62,534 nt of DNA from the NCBI GenBank assembly GCA_029243595.1, contig JAQWRQ010000047.1:1-62534 (forward strand), given 5' to 3'. The translations under genes and the position numbers were made by a program. The notes below the pieces were generated by a model that saw only the letters and a program-made list of their open reading frames with translations, ran no database searches and was not told the origin of the DNA. This document shows, one piece after another, positions 40,717-46,370 of the stretch. How positions within the stretch are numbered: position 1 is the stretch's first letter; the number at the start of each line of letters is the position of its first letter. This stretch comes from Gammaproteobacteria bacterium (GTDB taxonomy: Bacteria; Pseudomonadota; Gammaproteobacteria; PS1; Pseudothioglobaceae).

Positions 40717-42165
40717 CTAAAAACGCCAGAAAACTTTATGTAATAACGCCATTAATGTCAATATTTCTAAACGACCGAGCAACATTGAGAAGCTCAAAAT
40801 CCATTTTGCAGAATCACTGACACCGCCATAATTAGCTGCCACTTCACCCAAGCCCGGGCCAAGGTTATTAATACTGGCAGCGGTAGCTGAAAAAGCACTG
40901 ACTTGGTCAAGACCGGTAAACATTAGTGCGATTAGGATGATAATAAAGGCAATTACATATAGTGAAAAGAAACCCCATACCGAAACCAATGTGCTTTCAG
41001 CTACACTACGATGATTAAGCTTAATGTTAATTTGTGCATTCGGGTGAATGAACTTTTTAATCTCTTTCATGGCTAATTTAAACATCAGTAGCACTCTTAC
41101 AACTTTAATACCACCACCAGTCGAACCTGCACAAGCACCAATAAAACTGGCAAAAATTAATAAAATAGGCAAGATAAATGGCCACTGCGAATAATCAGTA
41201 GAAGCAAAGCCTGTGGTGGTGGCAATCGAAACCGTTTGGAAGATGGCTTGTCGTGCCGACTCACTTGCACTTAGATAGTAGCCACTATCAAACAAATAAA
41301 AACCTACTACCAATGTCGTTGCCAACAAAATAAACAAATAAGTCTTAAATTCTGAATCTTGAGAATAGGTAAAGGCATTTTTCTTTTGCCAAACAAAGAA
41401 ATGCAGGGAAAAATTAACACCTGCTAATAGCATAAACACAATGGCTACCAACTCAATCGCGCCTGAGTTAAAGTAGCCAATAGACGCATCATGAGTAGAG
41501 AAGCCACCAATCGCCACGGTTGAATAACTGTGGCCAATGGCATCAAAGGCATCCATCCCTGCTAAATAATAGCCTAATGCACAAACAACGGTAAAACTAA
41601 TATAGATCTTCCATAATGCTTTGGCGGTTTGCGTGAGTTTTGGGGTGAGTCTTTCTTTAGAAATTCCGCTAGACTCTGCATGGTAAAGCTCCATACCACC
41701 CACACCAAGCATTGGCAATATTGCTACTGCTAAGACAATAATACCCATGCCACCGAGCCATTGTAGTTGTTGTCGGTAATACAAAATCGCTTTAGGCAAG
41801 TCATCCAGCCCCGCTAACACCGTAGCACCCGTGGTGGTAAGGCCTGACATTGATTCAAAAAAAGCATCACTAAATGACATTCTGAGCGATTCAGATAATA
41901 AAAATGGAATGGTCGCAAATAAAGACAAGACAAACCAAAAGCTCACCACCACCAAAATGCCTTCGCGAATTCTAAACTCTTTTTTGGTGTTTCTAAAAGG
42001 CACCCATAAGATAAAGCCACTCAACAATGTCAGTGAAAAAGCAGAAACAAAAGATTGCATTTCATTTTGTTGATAAATAAAATCAACCAACATTGGTGGT
42101 ATCTGGGTCAAACTAAATACCATTAGCAATAAACCAATGGTTTTGAAAACAATACTAAATTGCAT
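40717..42165 (-). CDS. trkH: Trk potassium transporter membrane subunit TrkH
   Basis: Potassium-translocating subunit of the Trk system, 482 residues, with the expected four repeated membrane-pore-membrane units. Filter-loop segments seen are SMSGLTTTGATVL (about 104-116), YSTVAIGGFSTHD, QTVSIATTTGFASTDY and NNLGPGLGEV near the end, with the conserved Gly of each filter. It lies 12 bases after trkA in the same direction, so channel and regulatory subunits are probably co-expressed, together with the NtrYX-like pair upstream. Confidence 0.95.
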   Translation of the reverse strand: MQFSIVFKTIGLLLMVFSLTQIPPMLVDFIYQQNEMQSFVSAFSLTLLSGFILWVPFRNTKKEFRIREGILVVVSFWFVLSLFATIPFLLSESLRMSFSDAFFESMSGLTTTGATVLAGLDDLPKAILYYRQQLQWLGGMGIIVLAVAILPMLGVGGMELYHAESSGISKERLTPKLTQTAKALWKIYISFTVVCALGYYLAGMDAFDAIGHSYSTVAIGGFSTHDASIGYFNSGAIELVAIVFMLLAGVNFSLHFFVWQKKNAFTYSQDSEFKTYLFILLATTLVVGFYLFDSGYYLSASESARQAIFQTVSIATTTGFASTDYSQWPFILPILLIFASFIGACAGSTGGGIKVVRVLLMFKLAMKEIKKFIHPNAQINIKLNHRSVAESTLVSVWGFFSLYVIAFIIILIALMFTGLDQVSAFSATAASINNLGPGLGEVAANYGGVSDSAKWILSFSMLLGRLEILTLMALLHKVFWRF

Positions 42166-42177
42166 GGCTATCCATTA

Positions 42178-43551
42178 TTAGTCAAAATGCCCTTCAAATA
42201 ACGCTTCAACTTCGTGAATCTTGCTAACATCACTTAGCACGATAAGCACATGGTCGCCTTCTTTGATTACGAGCTTACGTGAACCCATAATAACCTCATC
42301 ATCCCTCACTATAGAGCCAACGACTACGCCATCTGGTAGGTTAATTTCTTCAACCGTTTTACCCACTACATCAGAATGCGCTTCGTCGCCGTGAACAATC
42401 ACTTCAATGGCTTCAGATTTTCCTTGACGCAATGAATGTACCATCGTGGTATCACCTTTACGAATGTGTGCCAAAATACCGCTGGTAGTGATTTGGTCAG
42501 GTGAAATTACCATGTCCACATCCTCACTTTGCTTGGCCAAGTCTTCGTATACATTACGCTTAACCAAAGCAACGGTTTTGTGTGCGCCGAGGCGTTTGGC
42601 TAAAATAGACACAATCACATTGATTTCATCGGAATCTGTAAGTGCTAAAAATAAATCAGTATTTTCAATACCTTCTTCTAACAATAATTCTTCATCAGAA
42701 GCATTACCATGCAAAACTAAAGCATCTTCAAGCTCTTCTGCAATCTCAATCACACGCTCTTTGTTTAGCTCAATAATACGGATACGGTGATTTTTTTCTA
42801 AATGCTTAGCCAAACTCAAACCAATATGGCCGCCACCGGCAATAATGATATTTTTATAAGCTTTATCAAGTCGTCTAAATTCTTTTAGTACTTTAGATAC
42901 ACTTTCTCTTTTGGTTACAAAGTACACGCGATCACCATCTTTGATGACGGTATCGCCATAGGCTGGAATCACTCGGCCATTACGATACAGACTAACAATG
43001 CGTATGCGTGTTTTTGGCAAATGCTCATGTAAATCTTTAATCGGATGACCAACAATTGGGGTGCCAGCGTAAGCACGGGTTTCTACCAATTGTACCAAGC
43101 CATTTTCAAACTCAAATATTTGCTCTGCACCCGGCTCTTCCACTACACGTTTAATATAATTGGTTACTAAGCCTTCTGGGGTAATGACAAAATCAATCGG
43201 GATGGCATTGTCTGAAAACAACTCTTTACGATGTAAGTATTCAGCCGTACGAACACGGGCTACTTTCTTGTCTACTTGGTACAAAGTATGTGCCATCTGA
43301 CAAGCCAGCATATTGCCCTCGTCAGACTTAGTTACCGCGATCACCATATCCATGGTTTTAATGCCTGCTTCCTCCAGAATGTTGGGATAAGAAGCATGGC
43401 CACAAACGGTTTTAATATCTAAATGGCGTTGTAAAGAAGACAGATTAGTCTCATCTTTGTCAATAATGGTGATGTCATTTTCATCATCAGAGCCTAGATA
43501 TTTAGCCAATGATGAACCAACTTGACCTGCGCCCAAGATTAAGATTTTCAT
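42178..43551 (-). CDS. trkA: Trk potassium transporter regulatory subunit TrkA
   Basis: Cytoplasmic NAD(H)/nucleotide-binding regulator of TrkH, 457 residues. It contains two RCK units: RCK-N Rossmann motifs GAGQVGSSLAKYL (about 7-19) and GGGHIGLSLAKHL (about 239-251). Each is followed by an RCK-C domain, the last ending in GDHVLIVL. The start overlaps the stop of the NtrX-like gene by 4 bases (ATGA), which links potassium uptake to the two-component pair at the translational level. Confidence 0.96.
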   Translation of the reverse strand: MKILILGAGQVGSSLAKYLGSDDENDITIIDKDETNLSSLQRHLDIKTVCGHASYPNILEEAGIKTMDMVIAVTKSDEGNMLACQMAHTLYQVDKKVARVRTAEYLHRKELFSDNAIPIDFVITPEGLVTNYIKRVVEEPGAEQIFEFENGLVQLVETRAYAGTPIVGHPIKDLHEHLPKTRIRIVSLYRNGRVIPAYGDTVIKDGDRVYFVTKRESVSKVLKEFRRLDKAYKNIIIAGGGHIGLSLAKHLEKNHRIRIIELNKERVIEIAEELEDALVLHGNASDEELLLEEGIENTDLFLALTDSDEINVIVSILAKRLGAHKTVALVKRNVYEDLAKQSEDVDMVISPDQITTSGILAHIRKGDTTMVHSLRQGKSEAIEVIVHGDEAHSDVVGKTVEEINLPDGVVVGSIVRDDEVIMGSRKLVIKEGDHVLIVLSDVSKIHEVEALFEGHFD

Positions 43552-44108
43552 TTTTTATCAATCCCTAAATCTTTTAATTTTCGATATAGCGTTGTGCGCT
43601 CTAAACCTGCCAACTCCGCCACTTTGGCGATGTTGTTGTTGTTTTCTTCTAAATGATGTTTGAAATATTGTGATTCAAAAATGTTTCTGGCTGCCTTTAA
43701 AGGCAAGTCAAAATCAATACCGCTTATTTGCTGCTCTGACGTGGTTATTTGCCCAGACAAAAGCTTGCGTACTAATGGCAAAATATCATGCAAAGGTTTT
43801 TTTAAAAAATCAACCGCACCCATGCGAATAGCCTTAACCACATCTTGGTGTTCAGCATGGCCAGACATCATTACTACCGGCATTGAAAAGCCTTCACTCA
43901 TCCACTCTTCTAACAAAGACATACCGTCTTGACCAGGCATCCAAACATCCATCATCACCAAATCAAAAGTCTGGTCTTTAACAATGTTTTTAGCTTCGGC
44001 AGCATTTTTGGCCAAAACCACGTTATAACTCACATCTTCCAATGTGTCTTTTATTGTTTCAGAATTAATACTTTCGTCATCAATAATAAGAATATTACCA
44101 ATAATCAT
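43548..44108 (-). CDS. NtrX-like response regulator lacking the AAA+ domain
   Basis: A 186-residue regulator. The receiver domain (about 1-118) has Asp10/Asp11, the phospho-acceptor Asp54 (VMMDVWMPG), Ser82 and Lys103 (FLKKPL). After a linker of only about 20 residues comes a Fis-type helix-turn-helix (about 138-183: LKAARNIFESQYFKHHL to LERTTLYRKLKDLGI), which strongly resembles the NtrX C-terminus. The sigma-54-activating AAA+ domain (about 230 residues in NtrX) is entirely absent with no frameshift visible, so it cannot work as a sigma-54 activator. It overlaps ntrY and trkA by 4 bases each. Confidence 0.88.
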   Translation of the reverse strand: MIIGNILIIDDESINSETIKDTLEDVSYNVVLAKNAAEAKNIVKDQTFDLVMMDVWMPGQDGMSLLEEWMSEGFSMPVVMMSGHAEHQDVVKAIRMGAVDFLKKPLHDILPLVRKLLSGQITTSEQQISGIDFDLPLKAARNIFESQYFKHHLEENNNNIAKVAELAGLERTTLYRKLKDLGIDKK

Positions 44109-46279
44109 GTGCTCTCCTGTTGTGCATATTCAAATTCAATAGTAACGATGGCGCCATGTGGCTCTACATTGCCGGCAAAAATTCGCCCATCGTGTTGTTC
44201 AATAATATTTTGTACAATTGCCATACCTAGCCCGCTACCTTTAACTTTAGTCGTGACATACGGCTCAAACACACGATCAATCACCGTCTCATCAAACCCA
44301 TCACCATTGTCTGCAATACTTAAGCGCACTATACGCTCATCACTTAAATAGTGGGTAGCAACATTAACGACTAAATCACGGTCTTCTTCAACTGATTCAG
44401 CTGCATTTTTTACCAAGTTAATCAATACTCTAGAAATACTGTTCGCATCCAAGAGTAGTTCTGGCACATCGCCTGATAAATCATACTCAATGGTAATATT
44501 ACTTTGCGCATCGTACAATGCAATAGACTGATTAATCAACGCATTAAGATCCGTCAGCTTGCGCTCTATTTGCGGTGTATTAGCATAATCTGCAAATGCA
44601 CTCACCATGGCATCCATTGACTTCACTTGATCAATAATCACACGGGTAGTTTTATCAATAACCTCTAAATCTTTACCTTTGAGCGTTTCTAAAAATTTGT
44701 TTCTAAGGCGTTGAGCAGACAACAAAATCGGCGTTAATGGGTTTTTAATTTCATGCGCCATACGCACGGCTACTTCACCCCAAGCTGCTTTTTTCTGCGC
44801 CCTATTAAGCTTTGAGATATCTTTAATAATAATAACGTAGCCTAGCGCTTTATCACTGGCATCAAGTGCTGACCCTTGGCAAGACAATAAAACATGTCGG
44901 CCTGGCAACGACAAATCAATCTCTTCACTCCACTCACCTTGCTCTTGCTCAAACCGTTCTTGTACCATTGAAAATAAAGGCTCTAAATAAGTATTTTTTT
45001 CTGAGATTTTCTGACAAAAAGCACCCACAAATTGCTGCTCATCATCAATAGCCAGTATCTTGCTAATCACTGGGTTAATTAGTTGAATATTGCGATCTTT
45101 GTCTAGCCCGATCACACCAAAAGAATATTTTAAGATGGTTTCTAAATAGATGTTATGCGTATCTAAGCCTTGTCTTGAGGCTTTAATTTGCTTGGCCATT
45201 TCATTAAACTGGCCAATCAGTTGGAGCATGTCTTTACTTTCTTCTTGGTTATGCACCAATACATCGTAATTACCCTTGGCAATTTCTCTTGAGGCGACTG
45301 ATAAATTATGCATTGGACGCATGAGCTGATCAATCATTCTAAACACAATCAACAAAACACTAAGAATGGTTAGTAAAACGGTTGAAGAAAAATCTAACAA
45401 AAAGTTCTTTTGTGTGAGCGAGGTATTAACATCAAATTTAATCGCATTGGCATAATTATAGAAACCTTTTACCTGCCCTAAAAAGCTTAACAGATTAGGG
45501 TCAGTCGCATAAACAGCAACAATTTTCATGTATTTTTTAATAGGCTTTCTAGCCAGGTGCCGTGTTGACATTTGCACTTGGAATAACTTGGATTGTTCAT
45601 CTTCAAACATGACAAAAGACTGAATGTCGGCTAACGGCTGATTGTCTTCAACCACACAAATATGATTTTCTTTACTTCTTGCAATTACCTCGTCTTTTTC
45701 ATCAGTTAGCTCAATATAACAAGCCCACTTATCATCCACCAAACCTTGAACAAAAATTTGCATGATATTGAGATAGTCTTTTTCGTCTTTTTTGTATTTT
45801 GAGTAATTGTCAATTTGTTGTAATAAGATCTCAGTATGGTCGAAATAACGGTCGTTCCTTACAACTTGCACACCTTGGTATAGCGCATCTACTTGATCAA
45901 GAAAGACTTTATTAAAGTTATTGTAGGTGTGTTGAGAGCGATCAACATTGTCTTGAATCGTTTGAAATGAAAACAAGTAAAAAGACAACACCGGCACAAT
46001 CACCAATAATGGGACAATCTTAACAAAAGACCAAGTGAATTGCGTACCAACCACGCCATTTTCATTGTCTTTCTTAAGTTTTGAGATGGCACAAACAATA
46101 TAATAAATCGCCATAGAAGACATGAGCACGTTATATGAAGCTAAAACCCACCACCAGTCTTCAATTAAAACAGGGTTTAAACCTAGATAAGACAGTCCGG
46201 CTAATGAAGTTAAAAATACAGCCGACCAAAACCACTTATTTGGTGTTTTTTTGATCGCAAAATCTTGATTAAAAATCAT
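44105..46279 (-). CDS. ntrY: NtrY-like sensor histidine kinase
   Basis: Membrane sensor kinase of the NtrY family, 724 residues. There are membrane segments at about 17-35, 45-65 and 85-107, a large extracytoplasmic region (about 110-285), and another membrane segment (about 290-315). A HAMP-like linker (RPMHNLSVASREIAKGNYDV), a PAS region (about 380-485) and the HisKA domain with His509 (RMAHEIKNPLTP) follow. The ATPase domain shows NLVKNAAES, DNGDGFDE and GSGLGMAIV. It is the first gene of a ntrY-ntrX-trkA-trkH operon, an arrangement known in other proteobacteria. The signal may relate to redox or nitrogen in relatives; here it is unknown. Confidence 0.9.
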   Translation of the reverse strand: MIFNQDFAIKKTPNKWFWSAVFLTSLAGLSYLGLNPVLIEDWWWVLASYNVLMSSMAIYYIVCAISKLKKDNENGVVGTQFTWSFVKIVPLLVIVPVLSFYLFSFQTIQDNVDRSQHTYNNFNKVFLDQVDALYQGVQVVRNDRYFDHTEILLQQIDNYSKYKKDEKDYLNIMQIFVQGLVDDKWACYIELTDEKDEVIARSKENHICVVEDNQPLADIQSFVMFEDEQSKLFQVQMSTRHLARKPIKKYMKIVAVYATDPNLLSFLGQVKGFYNYANAIKFDVNTSLTQKNFLLDFSSTVLLTILSVLLIVFRMIDQLMRPMHNLSVASREIAKGNYDVLVHNQEESKDMLQLIGQFNEMAKQIKASRQGLDTHNIYLETILKYSFGVIGLDKDRNIQLINPVISKILAIDDEQQFVGAFCQKISEKNTYLEPLFSMVQERFEQEQGEWSEEIDLSLPGRHVLLSCQGSALDASDKALGYVIIIKDISKLNRAQKKAAWGEVAVRMAHEIKNPLTPILLSAQRLRNKFLETLKGKDLEVIDKTTRVIIDQVKSMDAMVSAFADYANTPQIERKLTDLNALINQSIALYDAQSNITIEYDLSGDVPELLLDANSISRVLINLVKNAAESVEEDRDLVVNVATHYLSDERIVRLSIADNGDGFDETVIDRVFEPYVTTKVKGSGLGMAIVQNIIEQHDGRIFAGNVEPHGAIVTIEFEYAQQEST

Positions 46280-46370
46280 GTTTTATCAGATTGCCTTTCA
46301 TTATCTCTCGTTGTTTTCTCATTTTCTGAGCTGATTATCTCATAAAAAAACATGTGTCATGTTTAATTGT

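Follow-up and report, generated by a model that had tools for sequence, protein, structure and literature searches.

The regulator encoded beside ntrY in the window (the whole stretch of DNA that was analysed, 62,534 nucleotides) is, as judged by tree, sequence signature and synteny, an NtrX that lost its AAA+ domain and was vertically inherited across the whole family. NtrYX systems are widespread. The source organism (genome G000), a small sulfur-oxidising marine bacterium, has a genome of 1.1 Mb that is 93% complete. The full explanation that we consider probable is that this domain-loss descendant of NtrX is a phosphorylation-switched regulator of sigma-70-type promoters, and that its AAA+ domain was already off sigma-54 before it was deleted. 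The features of the locus are listed in Table 1.

Table 1. Genes and candidate regulatory elements of the ntrYX-trkAH locus, with positions in the window.
Feature	Position	Strand	Description
Short ntrX	43548..44108	-	ATG start, 186 aa; receiver and Fis-type HTH, without AAA+
ntrY, membrane sensor histidine kinase	44105..46279	-	724 aa; HAMP, HisKA, HATPase_c; 4 bp overlap with ntrX
trkA, K+ uptake NAD-binding subunit	42178..43551	-	457 aa; 4 bp overlap with ntrX
trkH, K+ transporter	40717..42165	-	482 aa
Candidate operator, palindrome TTGTTG-N8-CAACAA	46367..46386	.	Upstream of ntrY, conserved
Candidate sigma-70-type promoter of ntrYX-trkAH, extended -10-like TGAGATAAT	46334..46342	-	27 nt downstream of palindrome; no conserved -35

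In the Pfam search, the short NtrX contains a Response_reg domain (residues 6-107, 1.1e-26) and an HTH_8 domain (residues 144-180, 3.8e-9). There is no match to Sigma54_activat (PF00158) and there is nothing between the receiver and the HTH. This is the arrangement described in the earlier note, a receiver joined to a Fis-type HTH with the sigma-54 AAA+ domain missing; the coordinates given there are right and the strand is minus. The 4-base overlaps with both neighbours and the intact ntrY, also recorded there, are seen in the open reading frame coordinates and, for ntrY, in the Pfam matches. In the AlphaFold model, which was built from 16 relatives and has a mean pLDDT of 80, the final receiver helix spans residues 110-118 and three helices lie between residues 137 and 180. 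The tether between the domains is approximately 18 residues long in this model (linker at about 119-136), so that a first reading of about 20 residues was a fair one, and 36 residues long by the Pfam bounds. Confidence is very low at residues 122-131. The phosphorylation pocket (D10/D11, D54, S82 and K104, with D54 as the phospho-acceptor) is invariant in the short NtrX family, as expected of a two-component response regulator.

The best NCBIfam match of the short protein is NtrX (NF051870), with 113.5 bits versus 75 for the next model. This score is far under the 600-bit whole-protein cut-off for NtrX because the middle of the protein is missing. The protein has an NtrX-type receiver and an NtrX-type Fis HTH with the ERTxLYRKL helix, and its gene adjoins ntrY and then trkA-trkH as in Gammaproteobacteria. 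The three-domain length and the central AAA+ domain are lacking, and the protein is therefore labelled an NtrX orthologue lacking AAA+ and not a standard member. NtrX proteins of the Alpha- and Gammaproteobacteria (e.g., Brucella abortus NtrX, PDB 5m7n) resemble it in the receiver, the Fis HTH signature and the partner NtrY, and gammaproteobacterial NtrX also in the trkA/trkH neighbours. They differ from it in the AAA+ region of about 265 residues between the receiver and the HTH, which is the segment deleted in the short NtrX. No description of an AAA+-less NtrX was found among the open-access papers that were searched, which is weak evidence of absence.

In the tree built from the receiver and the HTH (17 short, 51 NtrX, 12 NtrC and 11 RegA-like rows), the short proteins form one clade (100/100) inside the NtrX side, and NtrX together with the short proteins is divided from NtrC (93/95). 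The RegA-like proteins form a separate clade (100/100). The HTH signature of the short NtrX (ERTTLYRKLKDLGID) matches that of NtrX (ERTHLYRKLRALGID) and is unlike that of NtrC (GRNTLTRKIKEL) or RegA (HRRTLQRKL). These results bear on an alternative that the earlier note had named, in which NtrX at the locus was replaced by a receiver-Fis protein from the RegA/PrrA/ActR group, to which it is unrelated. Proteins of this group have the same length (about 180 aa) and the same domain order, a receiver and a Fis-type HTH without AAA+, but they fall in their own clade, their recognition helix (MHRRTLQRKL) differs, and the PrrA model is outside the 25 best matches of the short protein, among which NtrX is first. 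Such a replacement is extremely improbable and is refuted by the tree and the HTH signature, with synteny also against it. Descent from NtrX stands, and the architecture shared with the RegA group is convergent.

The conservation sample consists of 83 genomes of the order, all of which belong to one family. The short NtrX is present in 77 of these genomes with 58-97% identity, and the six genomes without it are 53-86% complete. Its open frames are 160-234 aa long in the family; the 160-aa case is a match over residues 55-186 only. The family covers SUP05/Thioglobus, Ruthturnera and Bathymodiolus symbionts (the named relatives with records are Ca. Ruthturnera, Ca. Thiodubiliella, Bathymodiolus thiotrophic symbionts and Ca. 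Thioglobus). In comparisons of short ntrX with genus relatives, dN is 0.02-0.07 at a dS of 0.24-1.1 (dN/dS about 0.03-0.09). The low dN relative to dS indicates strong purifying selection on the gene. The frame is intact, as it had appeared from the window alone, and an assembly or frameshift artefact is ruled out by the 77 genomes and the dN/dS values.

In all 40 other gammaproteobacterial loci, which were found through NtrY, a full-length NtrX adjoins ntrY, and trkA and trkH then follow in most. This is the outcome of the length comparison proposed in the earlier note: ntrX is short in those 77 family genomes and full-length in every one of these outgroup loci. A further 15 outgroup loci were picked largely because the genome was small or the NtrY match weak. 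Where NtrY is genuine, these loci for the most part show the same arrangement; in two of the 15 no NtrX adjoins ntrY, and another two probably encode different kinases. With trkA/trkH after ntrYX in most outgroups, the potassium-gene linkage is ancestral and inherited, not new, and the special tie to potassium uptake genes that had been proposed for this system does not hold.

The GAFTGA loop is the part of the AAA+ domain that contacts sigma-54. It is present in none of the 51 full-length gammaproteobacterial NtrX proteins, where the loop is deleted in the alignment, versus all 12 NtrC controls. Of the 51, 39 have the Walker A lysine and 16 have the Walker B DE pair, and two of the full-length proteins (L226 and L232) barely match the Pfam activator domain. 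Since GAFTGA is absent throughout and many of these proteins lack Walker residues, the direct ancestor of the short NtrX was very probably already no sigma-54 activator. As read from these alignments, gammaproteobacterial NtrX most likely parted from sigma-54 long ago; its AAA+ domain decayed, and this family then deleted the domain. Regulators of the NtrC group (bEBPs) without GAFTGA are reported to act on sigma-70 promoters, and Caulobacter NtrX is itself without GAFTGA (PMC10274813). The NtrC proteins without GAFTGA in Rhodobacter capsulatus and Caulobacter are alike in that they belong to the NtrC group of regulators, have parted from sigma-54 and work at sigma-70 promoters (PMC10274813). 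They are unlike the short protein in that the AAA+ domain is kept, with a loop deletion only, and in that they are NtrC and not NtrX.

In the source genome, there is no match to the RpoN DNA-binding domain (PF04552). The four weak PF00158 matches are, as read by eye, ClpB-, ClpA-, ComM/YifB- and CbbQ-like ATPases, and a split gene with its AAA+ domain encoded elsewhere is thereby ruled out. A full-length NtrX elsewhere in the genome, which the earlier note had named as a refutation, was not found. The loss of rpoN that it suspected is supported to the extent that neither rpoN nor a true sigma-54 activator is detected in the source genome. With no AAA+ domain bearing GAFTGA and no detectable rpoN in the genome, the short NtrX is not a sigma-54 enhancer-binding protein of the NtrC class.

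Within the family, rpoN is over the cut-off in 12 of the 83 genomes, in one of them by fragments only, and is absent from 71. All eleven intact copies sit in genomes with a strong sigma-54 activator domain. In G053, rpoN lies in a [NiFe] hydrogenase cluster with its own sigma-54 activator (L240, 4454-16480), and in G044 it lies in a molybdopterin oxidoreductase cluster, also with its own sigma-54 activator (L239, 9560-14118); neither copy is at the lptB locus. Hydrogenase-linked rpoN has been reported from Bathymodiolus symbionts (PMC9789115). Given the co-occurrence with activators and the two metabolic clusters that were read, the intact rpoN genes of the sample resemble cassette genes that come with activators of their own. 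Family genomes with a cassette rpoN still keep the short NtrX. At the lptB locus, where gene names other than lptB and rpoN were assigned by reading the sequences, the order is lptB-rpoN in outgroup G148, lptB-tsaD-comM in the source genome and G052, and lptB-tsaD in G040. In G079 (C209:918-1248), a member of the same genus as the source, there are rpoN fragments only, with an in-frame stop, and these are possibly a relic of an rpoN cassette. G015, which belongs to the family and is 99% complete, carries strong sigma-54 activator domains at two positions (C43:1168 and C66:8078) but no rpoN match.

The earlier note had read the system as rewired from sigma-54 activation. In such a history, the ancestral NtrX activated sigma-54, the loss of rpoN made the AAA+ domain useless, and its deletion left a simple binder. 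The absence of rpoN and of sigma-54 activators from most of the family agrees with this, as does the disappearance of lptB-linked rpoN from the three family genomes whose lptB locus was read. However, no outgroup NtrX carries GAFTGA, catalytic residues are often lost, including in the rpoN-keeping lineage of G148, and the short form persists beside cassette rpoN. A true rewiring is thus improbable and already largely refuted. The losses of rpoN and of the AAA+ domain both predate the sampled family, so their order is not assignable, and the loss of rpoN as the direct cause of the loss of AAA+ is set aside.

Upstream of ntrY, most family members contain TTGTTG-TATTTTA[GTA]-CAACAA and then TATGAGATAAT; the latter is an extended -10, and no -35 is conserved. 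The spacing between the palindrome and the -10 is 27 nt in 32 of the 38 distinct sites and 17 and 15 nt in two more, which is about one helical turn shorter. In L042 and L292 (G052), the palindrome stays near ntrY though the stretch towards rnd has changed. The palindrome TTGTTG-N8-CAACAA is the best candidate operator of the short NtrX, whose binding to it is put forward as a hypothesis from sequence, and the layout of a palindrome and an extended -10 would meet the needs of a dimeric regulator that works at a sigma-70 promoter. The NtrX proteins of Brucella and Sinorhizobium bind to CAA/TTG palindromes in the ntrY promoter (PMC9223101). The half-site order of the known alphaproteobacterial site (CAAN2-5TTG) is opposite to that of the present palindrome.

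The palindrome is missing ahead of ntrY in the genomes of genus g6 that were sampled, in G049 and in G057, and it is imperfect in L041, L047 and L336. All of these keep the short NtrX; the reader of the palindrome may therefore be another factor. In the source genome, the copy upstream of ntrY is the only exact one. When up to one mismatch is allowed, there are 9 copies versus 19 for a reversed-pattern control. The near-copies do not exceed the control, so that no wider regulon is predicted, and a wider palindrome regulon is rejected. A search of the outgroup loci with the palindrome trimmed by one base at each end found none. In genus g6 (L045 and L328-L332), some of the loci have a different inverted repeat above the same -10-like element; in L045 this repeat is AAGTTATT-N7-AATAACTT. 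Elsewhere, trkA in L039 (2956-4067) and ntrY in L041 (3831-6004) appear split by a frameshift or stop, which represents either decay or assembly error.

The divergent gene rnd begins on the final base of the palindrome (46386) with TAAAAT just upstream; it may therefore have no leader and use this same site. The overlap of the palindrome with the start region of rnd, its position against the start codon and the TAAAAT within it, a possible rnd -10, would be consistent with a short NtrX that is a repressor or roadblock at ntrY, and at rnd, and not an activator. There is also a precedent in Caulobacter NtrC, which is without GAFTGA and represses some genes (PMC10274813). This role is nevertheless unlikely: L042 and G052 keep the palindrome by ntrY despite the change on the rnd side, and an ntrY promoter without a conserved -35 favours activation.

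In the mechanism that we propose, NtrY would phosphorylate D54 of the short NtrX receiver. Phosphorylated receivers would then dimerise and place two Fis-type HTH domains on the palindrome. The short NtrX would act as an ordinary DNA-binding regulator of sigma-70-type promoters, and its first target would be its own ntrY promoter and hence the ntrYX-trkAH operon, probably in the direction of activation. The simple binding that the earlier note proposed is thus a likely part of its reading. As the loop for contact with sigma-54 would already have gone from the AAA+ domain by the time of the deletion, the deletion would have taken out a module that was structural or vestigial. That AAA+ is deleted naturally and under selection across a whole family, beside an intact kinase, indicates that the domain can be dispensed with. 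The short NtrX gives a direct test of which NtrX functions survive without AAA+, and it indicates that a three-domain activator can become a two-domain regulator of RegA layout by subtraction.

A profile of the short family was run over 370 genomes of the class and found two more short NtrX-like proteins, both of which are in other families. The best match of each is the NtrX model. In G290 (4.1 Mb), the gene order is rsmB-DUF4390-like-ntrY-ntrX, and the NtrX is 221 aa (L353:4355-5020) and has no AAA+. In G171 (2.1 Mb), ntrY is an orphan and the short NtrX, about 187 aa long, is encoded away from it (L352:4017-4613), also without AAA+. These two proteins suggest that AAA+ has been lost repeatedly and independently. 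A broader reading, plausible but held tentatively, is that gammaproteobacterial NtrX does not act as a sigma-54 activator and that its AAA+ domain, a decaying relic, was removed at least two to three times (in this family, in the rsmB-linked G290 and in G171). What is left would be a minimal sigma-70 regulator, switched by phosphorylation, with its own operon under its control through a fixed module of palindrome and extended -10. Pfam confirms the receiver and the HTH in the G290 protein, and the HTH match of the G171 protein is under the cut-off. The tether of the G290 short NtrX is longer than that of the source family.
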